Shown: piece by piece, positions 3,592 to 33,207 of the stretch
How the letters are laid out: every line of letters starts with the position of its first letter
Numbering within the stretch: position 1 is the first letter of the stretch
NCBI GenBank assembly: GCA_023129715.1
Contig: JAGMBO010000072.1
Location: 1 to 33,207 of the forward strand
Length of the DNA: 33,207 bases
Direction of reading: 5' to 3'
Origin: Candidatus Eiseniibacteriota bacterium
GTDB taxonomy: Bacteria > Eisenbacteria > RBG-16-71-46 > CAIMUX01 > WJJG01
The notes under the pieces: generated by a model
The model's input: only the letters and a program-made list of their open reading frames with translations
Databases searched by the model: none
Told to the model about the DNA's origin: nothing
Program-made: the position numbers and the translations under genes

Positions 3592-3651
3592 TCCGCGCCT
3601 CCCAGACATCTGTGGCCGCAGGCCGAACAGCCGCGTCCAAATGACCGGGCC

Positions 3652-3681
3652 GGGGCGGCAGCTCTAGGCGCTGCCCGCCCC
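3652..3681 (-). terminator. GC-rich stem-loop between two secreted-protein genes
   Basis: An inverted repeat (GGGGCGGCAGC against GCTGCCCGCCCC, one bulged base, short loop) lies about 20 bp after the stop of the 1928-aa gene and 60 bp before the start of the next gene on the same strand. No U-tract follows, so it may be a pausing, mRNA-stabilising or factor-assisted element and not a classical terminator. Confidence 0.45.
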
Positions 3682-3700
3682 CGACTCACGGCAGCCCGGG

Positions 3701-6700
3701 TCAGTTCGCGACGATCATCTTGCGAGTGATCGTCCTCGCCTGTGTCTCCAGCCGGCAGAAGTAGAGCCCGGCACCGACCGGTTCACCCCGGTCGTCACAG
3801 CGGTCCCAGCGCACCGCGTGCATTCCCGCCGGCCACTCACCCGTCGCCAGCGTCCGCACCATCCGGCCGCCCACATCGTAGACCACCAGCTGCACCCGGC
3901 CCGTCTCCGGCAAGCCAAACGCGATCTCCGCCCCTCCCCGCATCGGGTTCGGACGGCTTCCCTGCAAACACACCTCGCTCGGCAGCACCGCCTCGGGATC
4001 GACCACCACGTCGCTCGGCGCGAGGAACAAGTCCTCGTTCCACGAATTACGCGCCGTCGCCTCCTCGAGCTTCAGCACCACCGCACCCGCGCGCTCACAA
4101 CGGAACCGCAGCTGCACCAGCTCGCCCGAGTGGCCGAAGGTCATCCCGTGCCCCAGTACCGCCGCGTTCACATCCGGCTTCCCTTGCGTTTCCATCACCC
4201 GGAAGAATACCTCTTCCGCATCCTCCACCAACGCACCCGCGTTCGACCCCAAGTAGCTGATCACAGCCTCGTCGTAGTCGACCACGAACCGCGTCCCCTG
4301 GACGATGCCTAGCTCGTCCTCCAGAACCACATGCACCACGAACTCACTGCCGACCGACAGCTCATCCGGAACCCGCAGCTCCAGCGCCACCGGCCCAGTC
4401 CGCGGCACATCCGGCAACCCAAACGGACCCTTCAGCGTCGGCCCCACCTCACCGTAGTTCAGCGCGAAGATCATGAGATCATCGAAGTCCACAGCGCCGT
4501 CCGGCTGCGGGATCCCCAGCCCGCTGTAGTCGTGGGTCGGACCGACGTCACACTCGGCATCTGACAGGGGGTCGGCGCGGTAGGTCCCCGAGAGCGCGCT
4601 GATGTCAGCCGTCCCCACGTACCCGTCGTAGGCAAGGTGCGGACGCACATCGCCCAGCCAGTAGTTCGTCGAGCGCGCCTCGTTGCCGTCACTCGCCTCC
4701 GGTCCGCTGTAGTGCAGTACGATGTCGTAGATGAACGCTCCGTAGTAGTAGATGTCACGGGCCACGATCGAGTGTGTCGCACTCGTCCCCGCACTCGTCT
4801 CGTCATACGCCTCGCTGCCTGCTCCCTCGTTCTGGGGATAGGCAGGCTCGCCTCCAGTGTATTCCGGGTAGTCTCCCCATGCGTTCCATCGGACCGTGAC
4901 CCCGTAGAAGTTCGTATCATGCCCCGTCGGGTTGTCCCAGCTCAGCTCCGCCTTCTGGTGGCCCGGCGCGGCCGTCAGACCCGTCAGCGGCGTCGGGACC
5001 GTGTTGTCCGACGTGATCACGTCACTGTCCGGTGTCGCCGGGTTCCCCATCGGGTCCGTCGCCGAGACCGTCACCGTCACGGTCCCGTCCGGCGTCGGGC
5101 AGTCCACGCTCACGATCGCGTCCGTCCAGGTCGCCAATCCGGTCCCCGAATCGTAGCTGTTCGGAGGGACCGCCGCACCAGCGCCGAGACCGACCAGGTT
5201 TGCTCTGATGTTCGGGATCCCGAACGTCGGGTCGTCGTCGATCACCGTCGCCGTGACCTTCGCCGCATCGGTGTCTTTGATGAACTCGTTCGTGTGCGTC
5301 AGCGTCACATTCTCGATTGCCACGCCCGCTATCGTCGGCACAGCCACGTCCACCTGGATCTCGCCGTCATCCTCATAGAACCCGCTCAGCGGCTGGTTGT
5401 TCTTATCTCGTACCGCCAGCACCGTCACATTCACCGGGCTCGTTCCCACGGCCAACCCCGTGAACGTCACCGTGAACAGGTCCCCGGGACCCGTCGCTCC
5501 GTCGATGTCGCCCAGGAGCACGCAGTCCACCGTCAGCTCGTTCGTCCCCGAGCTGGTCACATAGAACTGCGTCGCGTCAATGCCCGAGAGCAACGCACCC
5601 TGGCTCACGGCACCCGCATTCGTGCTCACCACCGCCCCGGCCCAGCTGAACTTGACCGAGTAGCCGTAGAGCAGGCCGCTGCCGCCGCCTAAGTACCGTA
5701 CCGTCACATCCCCGCCCGGACTCGCCGCCGTCAGCAACAGCGGATCCGGCAGGCACACGATGTTCTCGCCACCCGTCTTCCCGATCCATGGATCGTAGTC
5801 GACGTAGGTGCTGATCTCGTCGCCGGAACCGGGACCGACACCGCCCGGCCCAGTAGCATCGCCCCACCAACAGTGCTTCGCATCCACGGTGACCGTCGAG
5901 TAGTTATGACAGCCATCGCCGGCATTGTCGTAGATCGCATTCCACTCGAGCACGATCCCGGAAGCCGCCCCGTCGATCCCAACTCCGTGGCCCGTTCCGC
6001 CATAGCCACCATAGGCCCCGTCATTGTCGTGAATCCGGTTGTAGCGCGCGGTCACATTCGTGGGACCATCCTTGAGGCTGAGGGCACCTACCGACCAGCC
6101 AGAGCCGGCTACATTGGTGATCGCATTCCCTGAGATCGTCGCGCCCTCCGAAGCCACAAAGGAGATACCACCTTCCCGCGCGCCGTTGACCGTGTTGTCG
6201 GTGATCGTGGCGTTGTTGCTGCCAGGTGGGCCCATCCATGTGGCTCCCACCCAAATGCCGTGATCACCCGCGTTGGTAATAGTGTTCCCCTGGACCGTTG
6301 CGTGGTCTGACCCCCAGGCGATCCAAATGCCGTCACCGAGACCGTTTTCACTAATGCAATCCTTCACTGTGGCATACTGCGTCTTCATGAAATAGGGGGA
6401 ATACATGTTGCCAGTCCATCTAACGTTCTCGGCAGTAACGTGAGACAGCAGGGCCACGTCACCCCACGTGTAGTTCCGGAACTCTGCCATTACATACAAG
6501 CCGTAGCAGGCAGCTGTTACTGGCGTTTGTGTGAAGTTCTGAATGGTGAGGTTCTTGACCGTCACATTGCTTGCCGACACCCAAATGCCCGTACAACGGT
6601 TCTCAGTCTGCAAGGCTGTCCCATCAATGATGACGCCATCCCGGCTTTCGCCGATGAGCTCGAGTGATTCGTCGATGGTAACAAACCACCACTCCCCTGG

Positions 6701-9487: not shown

Positions 9488-9598
9488 GACGGTCTCCTCC
9501 TCTGTACAGTGCGAATGGCGGGAGATCCTTGCTGCACCGGCTTCCCCGATTCGGACAGCCGAACAGGCGCGCCCCCCTTGTGCCCCCTTCTATGCGCC

Positions 9599-9617
9599 GC
9601 GCTGAACGACTCAGCGC
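9599..9617 (-). terminator. Hairpin at the 3' end of the 441-aa gene
   Basis: GCGCTGA and TCAGCGC form a perfect 7-bp stem around ACGAC; the stop codon of the 441-aa gene lies within one arm. No T-run follows on the minus strand. It may attenuate transcription into the 1928-aa gene 120 bp further on. Confidence 0.4.
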
Positions 9618-10936
9618 AGGTGAACGATGCGCATCTCCTGATGCCGCTTCGCATCGGCGACCCTCAGGAGGTAGATCCCTGCGGGAACCTGTTGTCCCCT
9701 CTCGTTCTGGCCGCTCCAGATGAGCCGGAACTCCCCCTGTCCATCGTAGCGGGGCACCGACTCCCAGATGCAGCGCCCGGAGACATCGAAGATGCGCGCC
9801 CACAGGCCACCGGCTCCGGTCCCGCTTGTCGCGGCGCCGCGCAGAGCCAGCGAGACACCTTCGAACCGATGGATCCGGGCGGGATTCGGCCCGATCAAAC
9901 GGAGCTCGAGCAAGCCACTGCCGGCCAGGTCGGCGTCGCTGCCCGGATTGAGCGGCACGTCTTGCCAGGACGCATCGATGATGATCAGCCCGGGATCGAC
10001 CGCCACCGGGTCATAGGGGTCGGTATGGACGTCCCAGACATGCCACGTGTCGAAGAGCACCTCGGTGGAATCGAAGTCGACCTGCGAGGTGAAGTGCAGC
10101 CGGGCGAGTTCTCCGGGGCCGTCGACACACAGGCCCGGGCCCAGCAGCACGCCTTCGATCCGCAGCAAGGTGGGACTCTCTTCGACCGTGTACCACCAGA
10201 GCGACGGCTCGGGATCTCCGGTCAGGAGACTCCCCGCCAGGGCGGAGTCGAAAACCACTTTCGTATTGTCGTACTCGAGGAAGACCTGGAAGCCCCGCAG
10301 GCTGTCGACCGAATCGATTTCCATCGAGATCGTGCAGGGATAGCCGTCGCCGAGCACATACTTCGGGTCGGGATCGAAGAAGAGCAGCGCTGCCGGATTG
10401 GCGATGAAGCGACCATCCCGGGTCACATCAGCCGGAATCGGCGCCCCCTCGCAGTCACGCAGGACCGCCTCCTCGAAATGCAAGGGCGACTCCCCTTGCG
10501 TCTCGCGCGCGGCAAAGGTCAGGCGCAGGATTTCCCCGGGCGCGGCCACACATTCGTCCACCGGGATGATGAAGCCCTCGATGCGCACCTCGTCGCCCTG
10601 GTCGTCGACCGACCAGTAGAGCCCATGGGGGGACGTATAGTCGGCGAACAACTGGCCCCGCAGGGCGCCAACGAACTCGACCAGTGAAGAATCGTAGGAA
10701 ACCACAACTTCAAACCCGCGCAGGCTGTCGAGATCGGCGACCTCGATGCCCACGGTGAATTCCTCAGGGTACGTGGCGTAGGCGATCTCGGGGTCGAAGA
10801 AAACCTCGACCGCCTGCGCTTCACTCCCCAGCAGGCAGAGCACTGCCACAAGGGGAACGAAGATGAACGCCCGGGAGCACCGCCGCCACCCTTCCGAGCC
10901 ACGCGACATCGACTGCAGAGATCCCTGCACGCTCAT
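9611..10936 (-). CDS. Secreted protein with two cohesin-like domains and a FlgD-like C-terminal domain
   Basis: A 441-aa exported protein. The signal segment is at about residues 20-42 (AFIFVPLVAVLCLLG, then SEAQA). Two cohesin-like modules follow at ~41-181 and ~183-319. Each has the DSLRGFEVVVSYDSS / DSLRGFQVFLEYDNT strand and a GEILRLTF / GELARLHF strand, so the pair probably arose by internal duplication. Residues ~336-441 are a FlgD-like Ig domain (IGPNPAR, IFDVSGRCIWE, GIYLLRVA). It has no dockerin-like segment, unlike its two large neighbours, so it could act as a docking partner for them (inference). The ATG at 10936 has GGGAGG six bases upstream; an in-frame ATG at 10963 lies before that site and is less likely. 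Only 60 bp separate it from the 962-aa gene, which suggests one transcript. Confidence 0.87.
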   Translation of the reverse strand: MSVQGSLQSMSRGSEGWRRCSRAFIFVPLVAVLCLLGSEAQAVEVFFDPEIAYATYPEEFTVGIEVADLDSLRGFEVVVSYDSSLVEFVGALRGQLFADYTSPHGLYWSVDDQGDEVRIEGFIIPVDECVAAPGEILRLTFAARETQGESPLHFEEAVLRDCEGAPIPADVTRDGRFIANPAALLFFDPDPKYVLGDGYPCTISMEIDSVDSLRGFQVFLEYDNTKVVFDSALAGSLLTGDPEPSLWWYTVEESPTLLRIEGVLLGPGLCVDGPGELARLHFTSQVDFDSTEVLFDTWHVWDVHTDPYDPVAVDPGLIIIDASWQDVPLNPGSDADLAGSGLLELRLIGPNPARIHRFEGVSLALRGAATSGTGAGGLWARIFDVSGRCIWESVPRYDGQGEFRLIWSGQNERGQQVPAGIYLLRVADAKRHQEMRIVHLR

Positions 10937-10996
10937 TGCGTTCCTCCCATTCGCTGCGTTCATCCAGTCACCATCGCTCTGCGCACCGCCCCGTTC

Positions 10997-13885
10997 CTAC
11001 CGCACGACCATCAGGCGATGCGTCTGTTCATGTTCTCCCGTCTGTAGGCGGTAGAAGTAGACCCCAGGCTCGACGAACCGGCTGCCCGCGCGCCGGCCAT
11101 CCCACGAGACTCGATGGACTCCCGGCGGCAAAGGGCCTTCGTGAAGGCGTTCGACCCACCGCCCCGCCGTATCGAAAACATCGATGCGCACGCGCTGCGC
11201 TTCCGGCAGGGTGAACGTGATCTGTGCCCGGCCGCTGGTCGGATTCGGTTCGACGCGCACGTTCAGAGACCCGCAGGCAGATCGATTCGGCTCGCCCAGT
11301 CCCTGGGGATCCCAGGATCCGGCCAGATCCACATTTCCGATGCCGCGGGCCTCGAAACCACTGATGACGACGTCCGTCGCCCCGAGCCCTGGCTCGAAAG
11401 TACCCACCGCCGGGTCGCTCCCGGCATCGCGCAAGCGGAAGCGGGCGACGGCGTGGATCCCCCCGGCCGCGGTGCTCCCACCAAGAGCCACGGCATCGAG
11501 TGCGATCCGCGCGCGCGACTCATCCCGCGCCACCAGGAACGTGCTCTCGAGCCCCGACCAGAACTCGCCTTCCGTCGCCCCGACCCACTCGAGCGCGGCG
11601 CCGTAGGCCAGCTCGACACTCGCCCCCACGAGACAACCGGGGTTGTCGCGCAAGCGCACGGTGACCTCGACCTGGCGGCCGTTGCGCTGCACATCGGCGG
11701 AGGCCAGCAGGCTGCCGCTGCAGGATCCCGGATCCGGCCCGTCCCGCTTGCCGGCCTGGGCGTTGTAGTTCAGGGCCAGCATGATCAGGTCTTCGAATTG
11801 GATGACATTGTCGGTCGTCGGCCGACTCTTGCGGCCGTAGTCGGTCGTCGGACCGATATCGCAGACGTTGTTGTAGTCCGGATCCCCCTCGCTCATCCCA
11901 TAGGCAAGACTGAGCACGAGGACATCGTAGATATCGACGACGTACAAACCGCCCACGGTGAAATCCCCGAGCCAGTAGCAGAGAGATGCATCGTGTGCCT
12001 CGGGATGAGCCCATGAGTTGTTGTCCACGGCATCGTAGGTGAAGGCCGTGTAGTAGTAGTAGTCGCGGACCGCCGGGTGATCGACGTGCTCGGTTCCGGT
12101 TCCGTCGTAGACCTCTTGCCACCCGGCGGCGATCGCCTCACTCGGACTGGACGGCCAAGCGGGTGCGCTGCCCGCGCCGGGTGGGTCGTCGTATTCGGGG
12201 TAGTTCCCGAAGCCCAGGCGATAGATCCGCACCCCGGCGAAGTCCTCGCTTGGATTGACCCAGGAGAGATCGACACTTAGATCGACATTGGCCGTGATCT
12301 CGGCCTCGAAGGATGTCACGTTCGCCGGACGCGTCGTATCGATGGTGAATGGGCCGTGCGTGGTGACCGCGCTGCAGTTCCACAGCCAGTCACAGGCGAC
12401 GATGTGGAAGTACCACTCACCATCCGGCACATCTTGGAACCAGTGGCGATAGGCCGCGGAATCGGGCGACCAGGGAGTAAACCAGTCGTAGCTCCCGCCG
12501 CGCGGGTCCGGCGCCCCGCCGTGGTCATGGTCGAGGATCAAGTAGAAGCCCCGCATCCCCACCGGACAGGTGCCCCGGTCGTTCACTGTGAGCCAATCGG
12601 CCCGATAGTCGTTGTTCGCGCTCGTGCTGCCTTCGGCGTGACTGCTGCTCGTCAGCACCGGCGCGAGCGGCGGAGTGATGTCATGCGAAGCCTGGCCGTC
12701 GACATAGACCGCCGCCAGGGGGGCATTGTCCGGGTCGCGGAGTTGACACTCGACTTCGTCCAAGTCGAGGGACACACAACAGTCGTGGGTTTCCTGCCCG
12801 GCCGCGACGGCAAATGTGAACTCCGCCAGCGTCCCGCTGCCCCCCGCGCCGGGCGTGGCGCCGAGAATGACCCAATCGGCGATCGCCCACCCGGCGGCGT
12901 TGTCGATCAGCGACTCGAAGTGGTTCTCCTCTCCGGCAAGGAGGGTTCCCGGCGCCACCGAGAGAACCTGCACGCATTCCGGGGGGAAGCGGATCAACAG
13001 GTGCGCGCCACGGACACCCGGCGAGAGCCCGCCACCGTCGTCGTAGATGACCTGGACGGCGCCGGTGTCATAGTCGGGCTGCTCTGAAAACCAAACGACA
13101 TCGGGACTCAGGTAGATGAAGCGATCGCCCTCCAGGCCGGCGGCACCCACCGATACGGCGTCGACATACATCGTGCCGCTGATCGACCGCTCCCCACCGA
13201 GCTTGATCCCGATTTCACGCAGATCTCCGGGGTCGGCCAGAGCTGCGAGATCCAGGGCGAGCACGCTCCATCCATGGGCGAGCCTCTGCATTCCGCCGTC
13301 AGACCAAACCTCCCCAGCCCCGGAGCGCGCATAGAGCCATCCCTGGACGGGATCCTCGGGGTGGCTGAAGCCGGGATTGTAGACGCGCAGGCGCAACGCA
13401 TCGCCGGCAACCGCACCGATGCTGCCATGGTGCCCAAAGGGCCAGGAGCCGGTGTAGTCGAGATGCTGTTCGTAGCCGGCCGGCCAGCCGCTCTGTTCGT
13501 GCGTATAGCGATCTTCGGACTGAACGTAGACGGCATCCAGCCAGGCATGCGCCGGATCGCCGGCGTCGTCGACGCCCTCCAGATGCAGCCCGACGGCGAA
13601 GGCGCCGCTACCATCGCCGACCGGATCGCCCCCCGGGGCCCATGGGTAGCGGGTAGCATCATCCCAACCTTCGGGGACGAAGGGCGCATATGGGCGCACC
13701 GCCTCGATTCCGGAGAGACCATCCGTGCGTCCGACGTATTGCAGGATCCATCCCTGACCGTCGGCCGAGAAGTCGAAGAGGGCCGCATCGGAAACCTGTG
13801 CCGGGGTTCCCCTCGGAATGGCCAGGGTGCCCAACACAAGGAAAACGACAACGAGGCCAACCTTCGGGGTCCGCGATTCCACCAC
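10997..13885 (-). CDS. Secreted modular protein: jelly-roll-like head, cohesin-, Ig-, FN3-, dockerin- and FlgD-like modules
   Basis: A 962-aa exported protein. The signal segment is VGLVVVFLVLGTLA near the N-terminus. Residues ~30-250 resemble a carbohydrate-binding jelly roll (LFDFSADGQGW, LHLEGVDD, GTMYVDAVSVG), probably ligand-binding by analogy. A cohesin-like module (~259-405), an Ig-like domain (~405-519) and an FN3-like domain with YPEY (~519-638) follow. Then come a degenerate dockerin-like segment (~637-712: DIYDVLVLSLAYG, CDIGPTTDYG, FEDLIMLALNYN), a second cohesin-like module (~725-865) and the FlgD-like end (~868-962: VEPNPTSG, VFDTAGRWVERL, GVYFYRLQ). I chose the GTG at 13885 because GGGGAGG ends five bases before it; the adjacent GTG at 13882 and one at 13936 are alternatives. 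It is the first gene of the minus-strand block, facing a 557-bp divergent gap. No catalytic residues were identified. Confidence 0.87.
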   Translation of the reverse strand: MVESRTPKVGLVVVFLVLGTLAIPRGTPAQVSDAALFDFSADGQGWILQYVGRTDGLSGIEAVRPYAPFVPEGWDDATRYPWAPGGDPVGDGSGAFAVGLHLEGVDDAGDPAHAWLDAVYVQSEDRYTHEQSGWPAGYEQHLDYTGSWPFGHHGSIGAVAGDALRLRVYNPGFSHPEDPVQGWLYARSGAGEVWSDGGMQRLAHGWSVLALDLAALADPGDLREIGIKLGGERSISGTMYVDAVSVGAAGLEGDRFIYLSPDVVWFSEQPDYDTGAVQVIYDDGGGLSPGVRGAHLLIRFPPECVQVLSVAPGTLLAGEENHFESLIDNAAGWAIADWVILGATPGAGGSGTLAEFTFAVAAGQETHDCCVSLDLDEVECQLRDPDNAPLAAVYVDGQASHDITPPLAPVLTSSSHAEGSTSANNDYRADWLTVNDRGTCPVGMRGFYLILDHDHGGAPDPRGGSYDWFTPWSPDSAAYRHWFQDVPDGEWYFHIVACDWLWNCSAVTTHGPFTIDTTRPANVTSFEAEITANVDLSVDLSWVNPSEDFAGVRIYRLGFGNYPEYDDPPGAGSAPAWPSSPSEAIAAGWQEVYDGTGTEHVDHPAVRDYYYYTAFTYDAVDNNSWAHPEAHDASLCYWLGDFTVGGLYVVDIYDVLVLSLAYGMSEGDPDYNNVCDIGPTTDYGRKSRPTTDNVIQFEDLIMLALNYNAQAGKRDGPDPGSCSGSLLASADVQRNGRQVEVTVRLRDNPGCLVGASVELAYGAALEWVGATEGEFWSGLESTFLVARDESRARIALDAVALGGSTAAGGIHAVARFRLRDAGSDPAVGTFEPGLGATDVVISGFEARGIGNVDLAGSWDPQGLGEPNRSACGSLNVRVEPNPTSGRAQITFTLPEAQRVRIDVFDTAGRWVERLHEGPLPPGVHRVSWDGRRAGSRFVEPGVYFYRLQTGEHEQTHRLMVVR

Positions 13886-13979
13886 AGGCACCTCCCCGGC
13901 AGTGTTGCCGCTCGACAGCAGGTTGATCACAGTCACACCGAGGGCATCGGGCAGCAGGAGAATCCTACCGACACCCGTA

Positions 13980-23268: not shown

Positions 23269-26200
23269 TCATTTCAGAAACGTCATCTTGCATGTTTTCG
23301 TGTACGAGCCCGCCTTCAGGCGATAGACGTACGTTCCCGCGGCGACGATCTCTCCGCGATGGTCGCGACCGGTCCAGGTCACCGCATGGCGGCCGGCGGG
23401 CAGGGTCCCGCCCACCAAGGTGACGATCCACCGCCCGTCCAGACCGAACACCGAAAGCTCGACGGTCTCCGTCCCCGGCAGATCGAATTCGATTCGGGTG
23501 GCAGGTTTGAAGGGATTGGGATAATTGGGGAACGCCTGGTGCAGAACAGGCATCCCCGGAATCGCGGTGGCGGTTTCGACCTCGCAGGGAATGGCCGCGT
23601 TGCGCGAGTCGCGTGCATCGACAGCCACGTTGGCCGGGACGTGACCCTCCGCCACCGTCACCCGCAGCAATTCGCCCTTGCCCCGGATCCGCGCGCCGTC
23701 GCTCAACAGGGCCAGGCCCGTGTCCAGACCATTGCGGTCGATGTTGCGGAGGAAGACTGGGCAGTCCTGCCCTGCCAGCAGTTCGCCGGCGGACAGCGAA
23801 AGGACGGTGCCGGCGGGCAAATCGGCCTTCAGGTTCAAACCCTTCAGATCCGCGCACGGTTCGACCAGGCCCAGCGACCAGGCGTCGGCCTCGACCTCGG
23901 TCCAGGCGAACCTCGCAAAAACGTCGGTTCCCGCCGGGGACTTGGTGAACACCGCATCGAAGTTGACGGCCATGATCATCAGATCGTCGAACCCGATGAT
24001 GTCGTCCGGCTGGGGAATGCCCACGCCGGTATAGTCGTCGGTGGGTCCCACGTCGCATTCGTTGTTGTATCCCGCATCGCCGTCATGGGTGCCGTAGCAC
24101 AGCGAGAGCCCGGCGGTGATGTCCGGGCCGATCGTGATGGCGCCGTCACCGTCTATGTCGCCCAGCAGGTAGCTGGTGGCCGGGCCGTTGCCAGTGGCCC
24201 TGGGCCCGTAGAGTCCCTCGGCGTCTGCGGCGAAGACCTCGTAGTAGTAGATCCCCCGCACCAGACCGCCCGGGCCGTCAACGTCGGTGAAGGCCTCCTC
24301 GCCGGGCTGGACCGTTCCCGCCAGTTCCCATTCCGGGCTCGCCAAGGCCCCGGCCCGGCTGAGCGGGCGCGTGGGGACGACGTCGTTGGGAAGGCCGCCG
24401 TACTCCGGATAAGCCGAGGCGCCGCCCAGATCGTCGTCGTACCAGAAGCCGCGCCAGATCTCCAGGCTGGTGAGGTCGGCGTCGGAGGGATCCTGCCAGG
24501 TGACGAAGATCTTAAGATTGCCCGGCTCCGCAGTCAGGGCAGTGACTGCCGCCGGGGCTGAGCAGTCAACGGTGATCGTCGCGCCGACGCTGTTCAGGAC
24601 AGGCGGCGGCACCAGGTCGATGGGATCGACGGTCACGCTCTCGATGAGCACCTGGCCCGTGCCGTCGGACACACCCTGAAAATCGATCGTGAACAGGTCC
24701 GAGTCCGAGGGGATACCGAAAGGCAGGGCCGAGTCGCCGTTGATCGAGTAGGTGATTGTCCAGTCGTCCACGGCGTTCTGGGTGACCGTGGAGGTGACGT
24801 CGCCGGTTCCGCTTGGATCAAGGACAGTCACATTGCTGTTGTCGAACGAGAGACCGCCATTGCTCTGCACCCGAATGCTGTAGCCTCGGATGTACTCGCA
24901 GCCCTGGGTGAAGTGGAAATCCACCTGCTTGGACTGACCGCACCCGATGGGGTCGGCGTCCACGGGCAGGGCCTCGAAGAGAGCCGCCGCCCCGCAGATG
25001 CTGAGGATATCGATGGCTACCTGACCGTACGGATTCCAATAACTGCCCGCCGACTCTGTTGCTTCGATCCTGAGGGTGTGGGAACCAACGTGGGATGAAA
25101 CGTCGAAGCTATGCCAGTACCAGTTTTCCCCCGGGTCGCCTGTCTCGATGCTGCCGATCAGGGAGCCATTGATGTAATAGCTCTGATCGTCGGTGCTGGC
25201 GCCGTCCAGGTAGCGCACCCAGAGGGTCTTAGTCCCTTCGACCGGACCGAAGTCCAGGTCGATGTCCGCCCAGGGTTCGTGGGGCAAGTCGTACTCAGTG
25301 GGCGACCAGACCGGACGACAGGAACCCGGGGAGATCCCGCCGTAGTTGCCGCCGATGGTGCCGGGAGCGGTGGGACCCCAGCCGAGCATGTTGTATGGCG
25401 CCTCCCCCATGACTGTCTGGTTCTCGGATGCCAGGGTACCGATGTCGATGTAGTCACAATTGCCCACCGGATTGGGGGCTGCGTTCACCGTCAAGACGCT
25501 TGAGGCGTCGGGCGAACCAGGCGGCGATTCCGGGTTGCCGGCGTTGTCCGTGGCCACCGTGTAGAAATCGTAGTCGCCGTCGCCGGGGATGACGAAGTCG
25601 ATCGGACTGGACGAGAAGGTCCCACCGTACTGCGCATAGGCGCCGCCGTCCACGCGGTAGTGGAGCTCGACGAAATCCACCCCACTGACCACGTCACTCG
25701 CCGTGTAGGGAATGCTCAGGCTGTAGCCGGTGTAGGAGCCGGGCAGCGAGCCCACGGACGAGGCGGGCGCGGTGGCGTCCTGGGTGGAGAAGACGGTCGC
25801 GGACCAGGCGGAATCCAACTTGGACCCGTTGCTCGCCTTTACGCGGTAGTAATAGATCTGGCCTTCGACCAGGCCGGCAAACGTTTGGGAGAGGCCGGCT
25901 ATCCAGCCCGATGTGGGGTGAACCGTGCCAAAGTCGGGCGCGGTGGAGCATTCGACGTAATACTGGATCGCCCCGGTCACGCTGTTCCAGGAGACGGTGT
26001 TGTCCGAGCCCGCAGTGAAGGCCGGTTCGGCAATCATCGTCGGCGGGAACAGCCCCGCGCCGATATTGAACTGGATGTCGTCGTAGACCATCGCCGGCGC
26101 CCAATTGCCGTCGGCGGTATGAAAGCTTTCCTCGGTCAGAAGGATGCGGCAAAGGTAGGCGTTCTGGGACAGAGCTGTCTGGCCGTCGCAAAGCCGCTCG

Positions 26201-26895
26201 ATCTGCGGATAGACACCCACCTCTGTCGGCCCGATGTTGGCGTCGTAGGCGGGATCGGTGGACAAACCGGAAACGGTCGTTGTTTTCAGGGGATTGTCGC
26301 AGGATCCCTGGGATCCCTGCCAGTCCCAGAACAGGACGTGGTAGCTGCTGTCCAGGGCGAAGTCCAACTCGGCGCTGCCGACGGAGTCGGTCAGGAAGAA
26401 GTCGAAAAGAAGATAGGACTCGAAAATGTAGGCGGGGTTGTCCTTGTAGGTCTCGTAATAGGCGTCGTTGCGGTTGCCCACGCCGGGCGCCACCTCCCAC
26501 CAACGTCCCGCGTACCCGATGCGTTCGTTGGAGGCGTCGTCCCCCTCGGTCCCCCAGAGTCCGGTCGGTTTGCCCACGAGCTTGACCTGGTAGGCAAAGT
26601 TGGGCTTGAGATTGACCGCCGAAAGATGCCCCGTGAAGGTCGGCTCGCCCGTCTCGTAGCTCACCGTGACGGTTGCGTCGTCGTACGTGTATGTGTCGAC
26701 GTAGGTCTGGGCGTAGCCGTTCTGGGCCAAGTCGGCCCATCTGTAGTCGATGACCGCCGGCGAGGTCACGACTCCGGCCCGCACAAGCTGCACGACGGTG
26801 CTCTTATCAGGTGGCGCCCCGGTCGCGAGTCCCGGCAGCACAGCGACCAAGGGCAGGACCAACCCAAGGGATGCCAAAATGATCAAGCGTTGCAC
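23269..26895 (-). CDS. Secreted modular protein with an unrecognised N-terminal domain and cohesin/FN3/dockerin/FlgD-like cassette
   Basis: A 1208-aa exported protein with signal segment LIILASLGLVLPLVAVLPGL. Residues ~25-290 form a domain I do not recognise (NLKPNFAYQVKLVGKP, GYAGRWWEV, YLLFDFF, YPQIERLC, ILLTEESFH), shared with the 380-aa protein at 31635. FN3-like (~290-385) and Ig-like (~385-475) domains follow. A probable jelly-roll/malectin-like domain (~480-635: IDIGTLASENQTVMGEAPYN, KTLWVRYLDG) is shared with the 840-aa protein. Next are a cohesin-like module (~640-775), an FN3-like domain with YPEY (~775-905) and a dockerin-like segment (~905-980) whose first half has the canonical calcium loop GDIDGDGAITIGPDI. 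A second cohesin-like module and a FlgD-like end (NYPNPFKPATRIEF, GTYVYRLKAG) close it. The GTG at 26895 follows GAGGAGG by five bases. It is the last gene of a three-gene operon. Confidence 0.88.
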   Translation of the reverse strand: MQRLIILASLGLVLPLVAVLPGLATGAPPDKSTVVQLVRAGVVTSPAVIDYRWADLAQNGYAQTYVDTYTYDDATVTVSYETGEPTFTGHLSAVNLKPNFAYQVKLVGKPTGLWGTEGDDASNERIGYAGRWWEVAPGVGNRNDAYYETYKDNPAYIFESYLLFDFFLTDSVGSAELDFALDSSYHVLFWDWQGSQGSCDNPLKTTTVSGLSTDPAYDANIGPTEVGVYPQIERLCDGQTALSQNAYLCRILLTEESFHTADGNWAPAMVYDDIQFNIGAGLFPPTMIAEPAFTAGSDNTVSWNSVTGAIQYYVECSTAPDFGTVHPTSGWIAGLSQTFAGLVEGQIYYYRVKASNGSKLDSAWSATVFSTQDATAPASSVGSLPGSYTGYSLSIPYTASDVVSGVDFVELHYRVDGGAYAQYGGTFSSSPIDFVIPGDGDYDFYTVATDNAGNPESPPGSPDASSVLTVNAAPNPVGNCDYIDIGTLASENQTVMGEAPYNMLGWGPTAPGTIGGNYGGISPGSCRPVWSPTEYDLPHEPWADIDLDFGPVEGTKTLWVRYLDGASTDDQSYYINGSLIGSIETGDPGENWYWHSFDVSSHVGSHTLRIEATESAGSYWNPYGQVAIDILSICGAAALFEALPVDADPIGCGQSKQVDFHFTQGCEYIRGYSIRVQSNGGLSFDNSNVTVLDPSGTGDVTSTVTQNAVDDWTITYSINGDSALPFGIPSDSDLFTIDFQGVSDGTGQVLIESVTVDPIDLVPPPVLNSVGATITVDCSAPAAVTALTAEPGNLKIFVTWQDPSDADLTSLEIWRGFWYDDDLGGASAYPEYGGLPNDVVPTRPLSRAGALASPEWELAGTVQPGEEAFTDVDGPGGLVRGIYYYEVFAADAEGLYGPRATGNGPATSYLLGDIDGDGAITIGPDITAGLSLCYGTHDGDAGYNNECDVGPTDDYTGVGIPQPDDIIGFDDLMIMAVNFDAVFTKSPAGTDVFARFAWTEVEADAWSLGLVEPCADLKGLNLKADLPAGTVLSLSAGELLAGQDCPVFLRNIDRNGLDTGLALLSDGARIRGKGELLRVTVAEGHVPANVAVDARDSRNAAIPCEVETATAIPGMPVLHQAFPNYPNPFKPATRIEFDLPGTETVELSVFGLDGRWIVTLVGGTLPAGRHAVTWTGRDHRGEIVAAGTYVYRLKAGSYTKTCKMTFLK
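25010..25455 (-). repeat. 446-bp duplicated segment, copy A
   Basis: Aligns without gaps to 29785-30230. I counted about 52 differences by hand, near 88% identity. It encodes the probable jelly-roll/malectin-like domain in the middle of the 1208-aa protein. Confidence 0.9.
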
Positions 26896-26943
26896 GATAG
26901 CCTCCTCTGGTTTCTCAAGGCACCCCTACGGGCCGGTGTCGGC

Positions 26944-27735
26944 TCACTTCAACAGGATCCCCTTCCTGGTGGCTTGTCGATCCCCTTGACCGTGGATGAG
27001 GAAGAGGTACGTTCCGCCGGATACGGCGCGCCCCCACCGGTCGGTCCCGTCCCACTGCACGGCGCCCGGTTCCCGACCGAGTTGTCCGCTCCAGAGCGTG
27101 GCCACACGACTACCGGTCAGGTCGAAGACCTCGACCGCGACGCCTTCGTCCTGCCAACCGTCGAAGCGGATCGTGGTCCGGGGACTGAAGGGGTTGGGCG
27201 CAAGTGAAAGGCCGAGTTGCTTCACCGGGGGGGTGTCGACGGAGGACACGACACCGACGAGAATCTTCGTCCCCGAAAGAGTGACATCCTCAATGACCTC
27301 GGCGAGCGAATCGTAGAGAACCACGCTGTCCACCTGGACGTGGCAGATCCCGTTCGCGAGGCCCTCGAAATTCCAGCGGTAGAGCTCACCAGGACCCGTC
27401 AAGAAACAGGTCGGGCCCATGGTGACCGAGCCTGCGTACCAGGCACCGGGCACGTCCTCATCGAAGAATGGAAAGAGCGGACAACCGGACTCCGAAAAAA
27501 GCTCTCCGGGCTGGCCCTCCTGGCCCGTTACCACCGTTTCGTCATAGCGGACCCACAGTTCGATGGTCCTGACGTCGATCGCATCGTCCAGCATCACCGA
27601 CAAACTGCCACCCTCGCCTACGGCGACGTGCTGGTCGGCGGGAGAGAAACGGAGTTCGACCTGCGAGAGGGCAGGCAATGCGACGACCAACATCGTGATC
27701 GCCACGGCGATGGCGAGGCATCTCGAATTCTTCAT
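26944..27735 (-). CDS. Secreted single-cohesin protein with FlgD-like C-terminal domain
   Basis: A 263-aa exported protein with signal peptide MKNSRCLAIAVAITMLVVAL ending near PALSQ. Residues ~25-165 form one cohesin-like module (VAVGEGGSLSVMLDDAIDVR, ELWVRYDETVVTG, GELYRWNFEGLANG). Residues ~170-263 are the FlgD-like domain (LAPNPFSPRTTIRF, VFDLTGSRVATL, GTYLFLIHG). It has no dockerin-like segment, so like the 441-aa and 362-aa proteins it could be a docking partner for the larger proteins (inference). The ATG at 27735 follows GAAGGG by seven bases. It is the middle gene of the operon: 62 bp after the 840-aa gene, a gap filled by a strong hairpin, and 48 bp before the 1208-aa gene. Confidence 0.86.
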   Translation of the reverse strand: MKNSRCLAIAVAITMLVVALPALSQVELRFSPADQHVAVGEGGSLSVMLDDAIDVRTIELWVRYDETVVTGQEGQPGELFSESGCPLFPFFDEDVPGAWYAGSVTMGPTCFLTGPGELYRWNFEGLANGICHVQVDSVVLYDSLAEVIEDVTLSGTKILVGVVSSVDTPPVKQLGLSLAPNPFSPRTTIRFDGWQDEGVAVEVFDLTGSRVATLWSGQLGREPGAVQWDGTDRWGRAVSGGTYLFLIHGQGDRQATRKGILLK

Positions 27736-27757
27736 GTCTGGCCCTTCAGTCCTGGAT

Positions 27758-27781
27758 GGGGCCGGCGTCGCCGCCGGCCCC
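27758..27781 (-). other. Perfect 10-bp intergenic hairpin with GNRA loop
   Basis: On the minus strand GGGGCCGGCG and CGCCGGCCCC pair perfectly around GCGA, a GNRA tetraloop. It sits between the 840-aa and 263-aa genes of the same operon, ending 22 bases before the downstream ATG. No U-tract follows, so an mRNA-stabilising or attenuating role is more likely than simple termination. Confidence 0.6.
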
Positions 27782-27797
27782 GTTCACGCGCCGAACA

Positions 27798-30320
27798 TCA
27801 CTTCAGCAAAGTCATCTTCTGGATCCGGCTGAAGTCGCCGGCCTGGATGCGGTAGAAGTAGATGCCCGAGCCCACAGGCTCGCCCTGATCGTCCTTGCCC
27901 ATCCAGGTCGCCGTGTAGCGGCCTGCGGACATGGACTCGTTCTTCAGGGTGGCGACCCGGCGACCGTCGATGCTGAAGATCATGATCTGCACATGCTGAG
28001 ACTCGGGCAGCGCGAAGTCGATCTTCGTCGAAGGCTTGAAGGGGTTGGGGTAGTTGGCCGAAATCGCGTACCTGGTCGGCGTATCCAGAACAACCGGGCC
28101 CTCCTCCATGGTGTACCCGAGGTCCTTGTTGCCCGAGTCGCGGGCCGTGATCAGGATGTCGTCGGGATCGAAATCCCCGGCCAGTTCGATTCGGATCAAC
28201 TCACCCTGGCCCCTGATGCAAGCACCGCGGCCCAGGAGGGCCAAGCCTGCATCCAGACCGTTGCGAGGGATGTTCTGCAGGAAGTAGGAACTGTTCTGCT
28301 GCCCCAGCAAGTCGCCCGCGGTGAGCGACAGGACGCCGTCTTCCGGCAGGTTGGCCCGCAGATTCACGCCCTTGAGGTTGGCGCATGGCTCGACCAGCAC
28401 CAGCGACCAGGTCGTGTCGTCGACTCTCACCCAGGAAAGTCTGGCGATCAGGCTGCCCTCGGTGGGCTGGCTCTTGGTCACCGTAACGTCCCAGTTGAGC
28501 GCGAAGATCATCAGATCTTCGAAGTTGATGAAGTTGTCGGTGGTGGGAATGCCCGAACCGCTGTAATCGTCCGTCGGTCCGACGTCGCACTCGTTGTTGT
28601 AGTCCCCGCCGGGGTCGCTGGTTCCGTAGGCCAGGGACAGGACCGTGATGTCCCCGCCGGTGACAGCGCCATCGTCAGGCGCCAGGTCACCCAGCAGGTA
28701 GCTGATGGACGATACATTGGCACCAGCTCCATAATGGCCGGCACCGTCCACGGAATAGACGACGTAGTAGTAGATGCCACGGCCAAGGCTGCCATCGACA
28801 AGGTAAGCGTCAGGAACCGTAACTGAGCCGGCCAATACCCATTCAGCGCTGGCCACGGCAGCGGCGTGGTCAGCGGGCCAGGCCGGTATGGTCGGGTTGA
28901 CGTCGTCGTATTCCGGATAGGCCGAGGTGACGTCATCACCGGTGTGCCACACGGCGCGCCACACCTCCACCCCCGTCTGGTCCCCTCCGGGATTAGTCCA
29001 GGTAAGGGTGACCTTGTCCTTGCCGCGTAGAGCCGCGAGGTCCGTGACGGCGGTCGGCGCGGACCTGTCGAGGGTGATCGTGTCGGAATAGCCGGTGATC
29101 ACGTTGTCCGCGTTGTCCTTGTATTCCGCATTGACTGTCTTGAGCCCGTCCGCGTCCTCGAGGGCCCAGGCCAACCTGGTGTCGCTGTAGGCCTCCCAAG
29201 CGGACCAAACGAGGGCCTCGTTCTGGAAGCGCATCCAGGTGGCACCGCTCACCACGCTGTTCAGGGTGACGCTCAGACTGGTGGCGTAAGCGTCGTCGTT
29301 GTTGATGACGAAGGATGTGTACACCGGATCGTCGCAGTCAACCAAGACGCTGGCGGTCCCCGAGAACACGACGGGCGTGATGGGTGAGTTGTCGAGCGCG
29401 CGGAAGTCCACACTGGCCATGCTAACGACACCCGTACCGGTCGCCGCACCGTGGAATTCCACCGAGAACAGGTCGGCTTCCGCCGAGATGCCGACGGATC
29501 CACCAAGGATCACATAGTCCAGGTCGTAGACGTGATCTGCGGTGACCTCGGTTACGAACGACTGGTAGGTAACACCCGTGGGTCTCTCGAAGAAGGTGAC
29601 GTCGCTCGGGCCGAAGGTCAGGGGCGCATTGCAGGTGACCCTTACGGTGTATCCGCGGACGTCGGTGCTGCCCGGCGTGTAGTGGAAGTTGACGACCTTG
29701 CTGCCGCTGCAGCTGATGGGATCGGTGTCGACCGCGATGGGCGCGATGATCGGATCGGTATTCTCGATGGTGATGGCAATCTGGTCGATGGCTACCTGAC
29801 CGTATGGATTCCACCAGGGACCCGCCGACTCTGTCGCTAGTATCCTGAGGGTGTGGGAACCAACGTAGGATGAAACGTCGAAGGTGTGCCAATACCAGTT
29901 CTCCCCCGGGTCGCCTGTCGCGATCGACCCAATCAGCGAACTGTCGATGTAATAGCTCTGGTCGTCGGTGCTGGTGCCGTCCAGGTAGCGCACCCAGAGG
30001 GTCTTGGACCCCCCGGCCGGACCGAAGTCAAGGTCGATGTCCGCCCAGGGTTCGTGGGGCAGGTCGTACTCAGTGGGCGACCAGACCGGACGACAGGAAC
30101 CCGGGGAGATCCCGCCGTAGTTCCCGCCGATGGTGCCGGGAGCCGTGGGTCCCCACCCCACCATGTTGTGTGGCGCCTCGCCCATAACCGTCTGGTTCTC
30201 GGAGGCCAGAGTCCCAATGTCAATGTAATCCTGATATGGCCCAGTGGGTTGAGCATTCGCCAGCCCTGCCCCCAAACTAACCAATGAAACAACACCAAGG
30301 ATTGTGATCAGGCTTTTCAT
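27798..30320 (-). CDS. Secreted modular protein: jelly-roll-like, cohesin, Ig, FN3, dockerin and FlgD-like modules
   Basis: An 840-aa exported protein with signal peptide MKSLITILGVVSLVSLGAGL ending near ANA. Residues ~29-182 are the same probable jelly-roll/malectin-like domain as in the middle of the 1208-aa protein (IDIGTLASENQTVMGEAPHN, KTLWVRYLDG, GSHTLRILATESAG). A cohesin-like module (~190-330), an Ig-like domain (~330-430) and an FN3-like domain with YPEY (~430-545) follow. Then come a dockerin-like segment (~541-611: GGDITVLSLAYGTSD, ECDVGPTDDYSGSGIP, FEDLMIFALNW), a second cohesin-like module and a FlgD-like end (~746-840: NYPNPFKPSTKIDF, IFSIDGRRVATL, GIYFYRIQ). I chose the ATG at 30320, seven bases after AGAGGGGG, over the ATG at 30347. 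It is the first gene of the second secreted-protein operon. Confidence 0.88.
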   Translation of the reverse strand: MKSLITILGVVSLVSLGAGLANAQPTGPYQDYIDIGTLASENQTVMGEAPHNMVGWGPTAPGTIGGNYGGISPGSCRPVWSPTEYDLPHEPWADIDLDFGPAGGSKTLWVRYLDGTSTDDQSYYIDSSLIGSIATGDPGENWYWHTFDVSSYVGSHTLRILATESAGPWWNPYGQVAIDQIAITIENTDPIIAPIAVDTDPISCSGSKVVNFHYTPGSTDVRGYTVRVTCNAPLTFGPSDVTFFERPTGVTYQSFVTEVTADHVYDLDYVILGGSVGISAEADLFSVEFHGAATGTGVVSMASVDFRALDNSPITPVVFSGTASVLVDCDDPVYTSFVINNDDAYATSLSVTLNSVVSGATWMRFQNEALVWSAWEAYSDTRLAWALEDADGLKTVNAEYKDNADNVITGYSDTITLDRSAPTAVTDLAALRGKDKVTLTWTNPGGDQTGVEVWRAVWHTGDDVTSAYPEYDDVNPTIPAWPADHAAAVASAEWVLAGSVTVPDAYLVDGSLGRGIYYYVVYSVDGAGHYGAGANVSSISYLLGDLAPDDGAVTGGDITVLSLAYGTSDPGGDYNNECDVGPTDDYSGSGIPTTDNFINFEDLMIFALNWDVTVTKSQPTEGSLIARLSWVRVDDTTWSLVLVEPCANLKGVNLRANLPEDGVLSLTAGDLLGQQNSSYFLQNIPRNGLDAGLALLGRGACIRGQGELIRIELAGDFDPDDILITARDSGNKDLGYTMEEGPVVLDTPTRYAISANYPNPFKPSTKIDFALPESQHVQIMIFSIDGRRVATLKNESMSAGRYTATWMGKDDQGEPVGSGIYFYRIQAGDFSRIQKMTLLK
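29785..30230 (-). repeat. 446-bp duplicated segment, copy B
   Basis: Partner of 25010-25455, same orientation, same length, about 88% identical by hand count. It encodes the N-terminal probable jelly-roll/malectin-like domain of the 840-aa protein. Confidence 0.9.
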
Positions 30321-30338
30321 TGCTCTTCCCCCTCTGAA

Positions 30339-30368
30339 AATGAACACTCTTTCAATGAACGCTCTTTC
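30339..30368. repeat. Tandem 15-bp duplication in the leader of the 840-aa gene
   Basis: AATGAACACTCTTTC and AATGAACGCTCTTTC lie head to tail with one mismatch, just upstream of the Shine-Dalgarno of the 840-aa gene. It could be a small slippage product or a regulatory site. Confidence 0.55.
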
Positions 30369-31350
30369 TTTCCTTGATCCTGATTAACCACATTGATTGC
30401 TCAACGGAACAGAACTCGGCCGGCGATTTCCCGAATGCGGATAACTGCAATCCGACAGTCCGGAATGCCCCCCGGCGAATTCGTCCGGGGCGCGTTCGAG
30501 TGGATTCCAGTACAGCCTCCTTGTTCAGGAAGTCCTGATCGTTTTGAATTGTGCGTCCACCCGTGGACTCAGTCGGTCCCCCCGTGTATCGGAAATGCCG
30601 AGCTCTGGTCGCCGGGTCAGTGGGACCAGGAGGCTGGGTACCCGGGAAAGTCGACAATGAGTTGTGAGGATCGCTTAACGTAGACGAAGGAGGCAGGCAA
30701 GTAGACAGGGCAGAGAACCGCTCGGGGACGAGGTCCGATGGAAAACCTCGGAGTCGGTACATTCCTACTACCCCCCCCGTGGCACCGTGAGAGCCGTGGC
30801 TCTCATCTGGAGCACTGTTTAGCAGGGCGAGGACAACGACACCATTGCTAGTAGAGTAGCAACTACAACCTTCGATATTCCAATTTCACCTTCGGTTTCT
30901 CATTTTCAACTATCTCGAATGAACAGTCAAGGGCAAAATGGGACAGGGGCGACCTGCAGCGGGGGTTACAAAAGATGCCCAGAGCCTAGGGATTATGGGC
31001 GCATGACGTCAGCGAACTCAAGCGAGCTCAGGCGATTCTGCCGGGATCGGGTGAAGGCCTGGCGTCCTCCCATGGTTGGAAGTAGGATTCCGGCGAGTGC
31101 TTACGGATCACAACTCCCAATCGAAGAAGAGAGGGCACGCATGCGAACTGGCTCTCATCCTCGCGGATCAGGGGCTCGGCGCCCCCCGGCGAGAAGCACG
31201 TCTGCCTCCCGGATGTGGGTGATGCTCGGCCCAACACAGTAGCGCCTGCGGGACATAGACTTACCGCCCCTCATTCCCGCTGCCACTGTGTAACTCCCGG
31301 CCTGGACCGATTCCTGAGGATTAGGTCCTGGAGTCCCCTCTCCGAAACTC
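30369..31350. other. Long divergent non-coding region with palindromes
   Basis: About 1 kb between the minus-strand operon and the plus-strand promoter. Short frames here lack family motifs and good ribosome binding sites. Inverted repeats stand out at 30470-30490 (CCCCGG arms around CGAATTCG), 30555-30568 (GTCCAC-CC-GTGGAC), 30788-30805 (TGAGAGCC-GT-GGCTCTCA) and 30845-30862 (TTGCTA-6-TAGCAA). The stretch near 30840-30920 is more AT-rich than its surroundings. I could not pick a convincing promoter for the minus-strand operon. Confidence 0.5.
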
Positions 31351-31379
31351 TTGACACATGGCTCACCCTCACGTATTCT
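31351..31379 (+). promoter_or_regulatory. Sigma-70-type promoter of the 380-aa secreted-protein gene
   Basis: A perfect TTGACA -35 box (31351-31356), a 17-base spacer and a TATTCT -10 box (31374-31379, four of six consensus positions). Transcription would start near 31386, giving a leader of about 250 bases. The leader contains a small hairpin, GCGGT-6-ACCGC, at 31444-31459. Confidence 0.6.
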
Positions 31380-31617
31380 GACAATTGCGACAACAGCATG
31401 GCTCTACGAAGAACACGTTGAGAACCGACTGCACGTAGGCGAAGCGGTCATTGCACCGCAAAGAGTCGCAAGATGAATGGTTGCTTCTGGTCAATCCACG
31501 AGCTCTCAGGGCTACTCTTGTATTCCCGGCACCTCAGGCCCGTCGGGCAAGCTGCCGCTCGTTACGAGGCACGCGTGCTCCTTCAGGCCACGCACATCCA
31601 ATGAAGGGAAGGTCGCG

Positions 31618-31638
31618 ATGAACGGTGAGTTCTCATGA
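31618..31638 (+). CDS. Six-codon leader peptide overlapping the next start
   Basis: ATG at 31618 encodes MNGEFS and stops at TGA (31636-31638), overlapping the ATG of the 380-aa gene as ATGA. GGGAAGG lies a few bases upstream of the leader ATG, a better ribosome site than the GGTGAG before the main start. Translation of the main gene may therefore be coupled to this mini-frame. It could be chance. Confidence 0.3.
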   Translation: MNGEFS

Positions 31639-32777
31639 AGCGCTCTACAGCATTCTCCGTTTGTCTTCTAGTGCTCTTTATTGGAGTAGAGGCTTATGGT
31701 TCCCCTGAAACGGTCATCGAATTGGTGCCCGGCTATGATGTGACCACGTGGCCTCCGGCTCCGTTTCGCTGGAAAGACGTTGCCCCGTACTTGTACAGCG
31801 ACACGTACCGCGCCACCTACTCCTACGACTCAGCAACGGTCATGGTCAGCTTCGCTCCCGGTGCGGATACGACCTTCTCTGGGTCGCTCTGGGCAACGAA
31901 CCTTAAGCCGCATTTCGCCTACCAGATGAAACTCGTCGGGAAACCGGAAAGTCTTTGGGGTAGTGCAGGCGACGATGTCACCAACGAGCTCATCGGCTAC
32001 ACCGGCCGCTGGTGGCGTAGCCAGCCGACCTCTGGAAACAGCAATGACGCGGAGTATGAAGCCTACCACGACAATCCCGACTATGTATTCGAGGGGTATC
32101 TTCTCTTCGATTTCTTCACGACGGACGCATCTGGCAACGCCGAACTCACGTTTCTGATCGACAGCAGCTTCCACGTCCTCTGGTGGGAACACCAGAGAGA
32201 CCCGCAGGCTTGCGACAGTCCCACTAAGTGGACCACTGTCGTGGCAGACGCCTCCAACCCCGCATATGAACGAAATGTAGGACCCACTACGGTAGGCGTC
32301 TATGCGCAGATCGAGCGGCTTTGCTACGGAGAATCCAGGCTTGGAGATGGCAACTACAATTGTCGGTTCTTGTTGACCGAAGAAACCTTTCATCAGAGTG
32401 GTGAGAATGAGGGGTACTGGGCATCGGCAATGGTATGCGACACAGTATACTTCGATATCGGAGATCCTTCTCATACTGGAGAGCCCACGGGGCTTCCATC
32501 TCTCACGCTCTTGCCGATGCAACCGAATCCGTGGCGGGAGCATTCCTTCGTCGAATTGATGATTCCCGCACCCGCGCTCGTGAGCCTCACGATATACGAC
32601 TCCTCGGGACGCGTGGTTTCCGTTCCCAGCTCAGCGGTTCTGGCCAGGGGCAACCATCGCCTTGGCTGGGACGGACGGGATGCAGCAGGTCGACCCGTTT
32701 CGGCGGGCGTCTACTTCTATCGTGTCGATGTGCCTGGCTTGACGGTAGGCCGTGGAAGGGTGTCCGTCGTCAGGTAG
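31635..32777 (+). CDS. Secreted protein with the unrecognised NLKPxFAYQxKL domain and FlgD-like C-terminal domain
   Basis: A 380-aa exported protein with signal peptide MKRSTAFSVCLLVLFIGVEA. Residues ~23-285 form the domain that opens the 1208-aa protein on the other strand: shared blocks are NLKPHFAYQMKLVGKPESLW, GYTGRWWRS, EGYLLFDFFTTDASGNAELT, VGVYAQIERLC and FLLTEETFH. The blocks keep the same order and spacing and conserved cysteines. I do not recognise it as a named family. Many aromatic residues suggest a beta-rich, perhaps ligand-binding, fold. Residues ~286-380 are the FlgD-like domain (MQPNPWREHSF, IYDSSGRVVSV, GVYFYRVDVPG). The ATG has GGTGAG five bases upstream and overlaps a six-codon leader frame. 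It has no cohesin- or dockerin-like module. A good promoter lies 250 bp upstream. Confidence 0.85.
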   Translation: MKRSTAFSVCLLVLFIGVEAYGSPETVIELVPGYDVTTWPPAPFRWKDVAPYLYSDTYRATYSYDSATVMVSFAPGADTTFSGSLWATNLKPHFAYQMKLVGKPESLWGSAGDDVTNELIGYTGRWWRSQPTSGNSNDAEYEAYHDNPDYVFEGYLLFDFFTTDASGNAELTFLIDSSFHVLWWEHQRDPQACDSPTKWTTVVADASNPAYERNVGPTTVGVYAQIERLCYGESRLGDGNYNCRFLLTEETFHQSGENEGYWASAMVCDTVYFDIGDPSHTGEPTGLPSLTLLPMQPNPWREHSFVELMIPAPALVSLTIYDSSGRVVSVPSSAVLARGNHRLGWDGRDAAGRPVSAGVYFYRVDVPGLTVGRGRVSVVR

Positions 32778-33055: not shown

Positions 33056-33207
33056 ATGAACGTGATGCGAAGATTTTCAGTCTTTCTGGGTGTTGTTTTG
33101 AGCATTGGGCTGGCCAGTGCTGCAGGCGCTTCGGACTGCGTCCAGCTCGATATGGTGGATATCGGTGACCCTGCTTCGGAAGCCGGTCACAGTCTCGTGG
33201 GCTGGGG
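33056..33207 (+). CDS. Secreted protein, 5' fragment cut by the window end
   Basis: The first 50 codons of a gene running out of the window. The signal peptide MNVMRRFSVFLGVVLSIGLA ends near SAAGAS. The mature start reads QLDMVDIGDPASEAGHSLVG followed by WG, which aligns with IDIGTLASENQTVMGEAPHN and VGWG at the start of the 840-aa protein, so the same probable jelly-roll/malectin-like domain follows. The ATG at 33056 has GGAGG seven bases upstream. A cohesin/FlgD-like C-terminus is expected but not visible. It is 278 bp after the 380-aa gene. Confidence 0.8.
   Translation, partial: MNVMRRFSVFLGVVLSIGLASAAGASDCVQLDMVDIGDPASEAGHSLVGW

Follow-up and report, generated by a model that had tools for sequence, protein, structure and literature searches.

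A previously unclassified domain family of secreted, modular proteins, fused in some genomes to beta-mannan-cleaving enzymes

Two genes on opposite strands of the stretch of DNA considered here, namely the window of 33,207 nucleotides that forms contig C157 of a 4.8-Mb genome, encode proteins of 380 and 1208 amino acids that have a region in common. The question raised by this locus is what this region is and what it may do for the proteins that carry it. We will first describe the two copies and the genes around them, then the family and its predicted fold, and finally its association with carbohydrate active enzymes.

The two copies of the domain and their gene cluster

The original prediction of a common domain in the two genes is confirmed, since BLASTP aligns the proteins at 53% identity (149/283, E 2e-88), and a search of the whole genome finds two copies only, 56% identical to each other (Table 1). 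The domain spans residues ∼30–275 of the 1208-aa protein and ∼23–275 of the 380-aa protein, at 53–56% identity. It had been thought to fill nearly the whole mature 380-aa protein, of which it takes up ∼70%, residues ∼290–380 being a FlgD_ig/T9SS-type tail. The blocks by which it was first recognized, i.e., NLKPxFAYQxKLVGKP, GRWW, YLLFDFF, QIERLC, and LLTEE[ST]FH, are present in both proteins in identical order, although LVGKP and QIERLC do not extend to the whole family, whose common blocks are YRW, LKPNFAYQxKL, GRWW, SSYHVLW, and LTEESFH.

Both proteins are secreted and modular: each has a signal peptide, recognized by eye, and a C-terminal sorting-type domain, the combination that marks the T9SS/FlgD_ig-tailed class, with PF13860 above the cut-off and TIGR04183 at or just under it. 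In the 1208-aa protein the order is signal peptide, domain, fn3/OmpL47-like region, DYIDIG module, cohesin-like module, fn3 with a dockerin-like module, a further cohesin-like module, and FlgD_ig tail, where the cohesin-like and dockerin-like labels were assigned by eye.

Table 1. Coordinates of the features discussed, in positions of the window
Feature	Position	Strand	Evidence or remark
Domain copy 1, residues 23–275 of the 380-aa protein	31701..32459	+	BLASTP, genome search, motifs, AlphaFold2
Domain copy 2, N-terminal part of the 1208-aa protein	26062..26802	-	BLASTP, genome search, motifs; groups with G061 and G065
380-aa protein gene	31635..32777	+	Signal peptide (by eye), domain, FlgD_ig/T9SS-type tail
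FlgD_ig-like C-terminal tail, 380-aa protein	32553..32726	+	PF13860, E 6.8e-9
Loop after EETFH, 380-aa protein	32394..32417	+	Insertion point of the GH5 mannanase in relatives L007 and L078
1208-aa protein gene (P0001)	23269..26895	-	
DYIDIG module (unclassified), 1208-aa protein	25009..25458	-	Common to the 849-aa protein
FlgD_ig-like tail, 1208-aa protein	23311..23490	-	PF13860, E 1.7e-6
263-aa secreted protein (P0004)	26944..27735	-	Cohesin-like by eye, weak sorting tail; conserved neighbour
849-aa secreted protein (P0003)	27798..30347	-	DYIDIG module, cohesin-like, fn3, dockerin-like, T9SS tail; conserved neighbour
Further secreted DYVDIG-module gene	33056..33207	+	Start only; cut by the window end

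P0003, P0004, and P0001 are consecutive on the minus strand, and the 380-aa gene is divergent from them. Much of this gene order is kept in G061, L008 (G064), and L010 (G065), and neighbours similar to the DYVDIG-module gene are found in L005 and L010. A second surface-protein cluster lies on the minus strand at positions 2503–13936, where four further secreted proteins have matches to cohesin, beta-helix/NosD, FlgD_ig, and Mann_GBD_bact.

A coherent family with a predicted beta-sandwich fold

That the domain could not be assigned to a known family, as originally noted, is upheld. With the window copies and up to 30 family members as queries, the domain region has no match above the curated cut-offs of Pfam and NCBIfam, and none in the PDB by sequence. 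PHROGs gave isolated weak matches only, and a text search of the literature on the domain motif and on nested mannanases returned nothing useful. Structure prediction and fold comparison, proposed as a check, gave a confident beta-sandwich for the window copy (AlphaFold2, pLDDT 88.7, pTM 0.87), and a similarly confident model for the shortest member, L054, from which most of the helical insert is absent (pLDDT 85.3, pTM 0.85). Foldseek finds nothing in the PDB at E ≤ 1e-3 with either model. Set against Pfam, NCBIfam, and the PDB, this is a previously unclassified family, predicted to fold as a single unit of ∼250 residues.

The best partial fold matches are to Cu,Zn-SOD-like and neocarzinostatin barrels, and they raise the possibility that the domain belongs to the Cu,Zn-SOD/CHRD superfamily, having diverged far and lost its metal site. 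L054 matches the Cu,Zn-SOD of Hydra with a Foldseek probability of 0.99 over 89 columns, and the window copy matches the SOD-like 1s4i with a probability of 0.66. However, the former match has an E value of just 7.6e-3 and TM scores of 0.22–0.35 (TMt 0.35), with the neocarzinostatin score close behind, and hhalign comparison of the domain profile with the CHRD and Sod_Cu sequences of relatives returns a probability of 0.2–0.3%, i.e., no support for homology at the profile level. The SOD-like Greek-key barrel fold of CHRD (PF07452) and Cu,Zn-SOD (PF00080) partly resembles the predicted barrel core, whereas the domain has no profile similarity to them and about twice their length, and the SOD metal-ligand pattern was not seen by eye. 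We regard this kinship as very improbable. An isopeptide or ester-bond adhesin was also considered, as ester-bond domains are among the Foldseek matches of the window copy, and was set aside because the conserved Gln and Thr of the domain do not seem to follow the motif of such adhesins. CHRD domains, often in tandem, occur in 11 of 29 genomes of the window's relatives (L108–L121; genomes G005–G026); in the same search none was found in the window's own genome.

An initial scan across bacterial and archaeal genomes picked up 23 loci, and later genome searches brought the family to ∼40 copies in 28 genomes, distributed among Krumholzibacteriota, Eisenbacteria, Latescibacterota, Zixibacteria, LCP-89, Planctomycetota, Armatimonadota, and others. 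The spread is patchy: the domain was found in 1 of 47 genomes of the window's phylum, 3 of 8 Eisenbacteria, 5 of 80 genomes in the group holding the Krumholzibacteriia loci, 7 of the 392 planctomycetes drawn, and 1 of 194 genomes of an archaeal group. One copy (L021:1325-2329), on a contig filed as euryarchaeote, is placed by the tree with planctomycete-type copies and is possibly mis-binned. The domain of the 1208-aa protein shares 79% identity with that of G065 and clusters with those of G065 and G061 at 100/100, hence the two window copies are old paralogues. For the window itself, an assembly or binning artefact was rejected on its tetranucleotide composition, which fits the other contigs of the genome (median distance 2.84 versus 2.96 within the genome) and makes transfer or loss a likelier explanation than mis-binning. 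Searches for a viral, phage, or plasmid origin were without any match.

Among 30 sequences, with a mean identity of 45%, the residues invariant where present are R23, D26, L68–P70, A73–Q75, K77, R103, D116, H158, R206, E227, E228, F230, H231, G238, and W240 (numbered as in the window copy). Where it could be compared with the GH5 catalytic domain linked to it, in three pairs, the domain was slightly the better conserved (67 versus 62, 44 versus 37, and 46 versus 42% identity), and it is therefore under strong constraint.

Fusion to, and insertion of, mannan-cleaving enzymes

Within proteins, the domain is accompanied by FlgD_ig/T9SS-type tails, dockerins (as in L058), or PEP-CTERM-like tails (L014 and L016, by eye), and it also occurs as stand-alone single-domain proteins in L003, L004, L006, L008, L014, and L016. 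An unclassified module (WNDDFIAAFVDAEGINRHPGS) repeatedly accompanies it in planctomycetes (L015, L017, L020, and L025). Most copies are without a glycosidase. L019 joins it in one protein to a GH5 mannanase, matching PDB 8gf3 with E 4e-65, L015 combines a subtilase, a GH113, and the domain, and in L012 a DUF5060 enzyme accompanies it. GH113 enzymes are beta-mannanases.

In two genomes the enzyme lies inside the domain. L078 has a complete GH5 mannanase between ESFHQTG and GQWACAM, and in L007 a GH5 mannanase is inserted at the equivalent loop (ESFHQ[ST]G / GxWAxAM) and is itself split by a complete GH5 Man5A-like exo-mannosidase. The L007 cluster, which consists of a P0004-like gene, a P0003-like gene, the domain with mannanase, and a mannosidase, resembles that of the window in content and order. 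In L013, a gene for a mannanase that encloses a mannosidase lies two genes from the domain gene, and the same nesting, without the domain, is found in L102, which belongs to the family of the window genome. The splitting of a GH5 endo-mannanase at one loop by a GH5 Man5A-like exo-mannosidase is thus seen at L007:7890-12761, L013:1291-4938, and L102:6377-10105, with a partial fourth case at a contig end (L103:2846-4708). The NEP and EEF/EEY catalytic-type motifs of both nested enzymes are legible by eye in L007 and L013. As the arrangement recurs in several independent genomes, an assembly artefact is disfavoured. In an LCP-89 protein (L013:7329-9347), a different module (YYPDPWPGNGLIVLGSGT) interrupts the domain close to its N-terminal end and marks a second insertion point.

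A GH5 mannanase of this type occurs in 4 of the 28 domain-positive genomes, in all four either fused to the domain or within a few kb of its gene, and is absent from the other 24, the window's genome among them. As it is also present in 3 of 54 domain-negative genomes, no general co-occurrence is found, and the link between domain and mannanase is physical in some genomes rather than general.

Possible roles of the domain

Since it is fused elsewhere to mannan-cutting enzymes, the domain probably handles sugars. The reading that we prefer, and hold tentatively, is that it is a glycan-handling accessory module of surface-sorted multidomain proteins, most likely for beta-mannan or a hemicellulose related to it. 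Binding of the polysaccharide would occur through conserved residues of polar and aromatic type, and after T9SS-like sorting the domain would keep the enzyme against its substrate at the cell surface. In the window, the domain would instead hold the DYIDIG, cohesin-like, and dockerin-like modules there, with the 380-aa protein binding on its own and the 1208-aa protein acting as a scaffold-like partner. In favour of a glycan role are the GH5 and GH113 fusions of L019 and L015, the insertions in L007 and L078, the neighbouring gene in L013, the likeness of the L007 cluster, the surface sorting, the constraint, and a precedent for the reuse of SOD-like barrels in polysaccharide binding, namely the CHRD barrels that bind glycosaminoglycans (PMC13382577). 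The chief weakness of this reading is that the mannanase is absent from most domain-carrying genomes; moreover, the invariant polar residues are many for a binding module, and the enzyme carried by L012, of the DUF5060 type, is not an assigned mannanase.

The scarcity of glycosidases next to the domain would also fit a structural or protein–protein module of a surface matrix, of the cohesin/dockerin-type assembly, with the mannanases as cargo. The domain is found beside sorting tails and modules of the Ig-like, fn3, cohesin-like, and dockerin-like kinds, and it accepts an entire catalytic domain at one loop and, in L013, a different module at another. However, the linked enzymes are not a random sample (GH5 mannanase three times, GH113 once), and the charged and aromatic invariant positions look more like a ligand site than a spacer, so that we consider a structural role somewhat unlikely. 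The same residues, in particular R23, D26, K69, Q75, K77, R103, D116, H158, R206, E227, E228, H231, and W240, could instead mean that the domain is itself an enzyme, acting for example on a side group or linkage of mannan by means of its invariant His, Glu, Lys, and Arg. A conservation equal to or above that of the linked GH5 domains and the existence of stand-alone proteins fit this idea, but no enzyme family or fold is matched in Pfam, NCBIfam, or Foldseek, and we judge it quite unlikely. A more speculative proposal, in our opinion also decidedly unlikely, is that the family hosts catalytic domains in its own loop as a "Russian-doll" surface protein, where a glycan-active sandwich encloses an endo-mannanase that encloses an exo-mannosidase; the window cluster would then have lost, or never had, the enzymes, and catalysis may also be a property of the host domain.

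The accessory, glycan-handling module remains our preferred reading. Whichever role applies, an uncatalogued family with a confident predicted fold is scattered across many uncultured phyla and is physically tied to polysaccharide-degrading enzymes in several genomes. Once annotated, it would suggest a testable function for many surface proteins now labelled hypothetical. The architecture in which a catalytic domain is placed within it, found at one and the same loop in two genomes, is unusual for an enzyme.

Among known systems, the domain is closest in setting to the carbohydrate-binding module (CBM) families of CAZy, being likewise a secreted, predicted beta-sandwich module beside GH5 and GH113 mannanases and dockerins. 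It differs from them in having no sequence or fold match, in its ∼250 residues with a helical insert, in its unusual conservation, and in a binding activity that is so far putative. A CBM is a contiguous, separately folding part of an enzyme; here a separate fold is predicted and GH5 or GH113 is fused in some genomes, whereas in L007 and L078 the module is split by the catalytic domain that it encloses, and in the window it stands without an attached enzyme. The cluster also recalls cellulosome-like cohesin/dockerin systems and T9SS-sorted proteins, as it combines FlgD_ig/T9SS tails with cohesin-like and dockerin-like modules recognized by profile or by eye, but in the 380-aa and 1208-aa proteins the cohesin and dockerin calls were made by eye, and the scaffold is a putative one.
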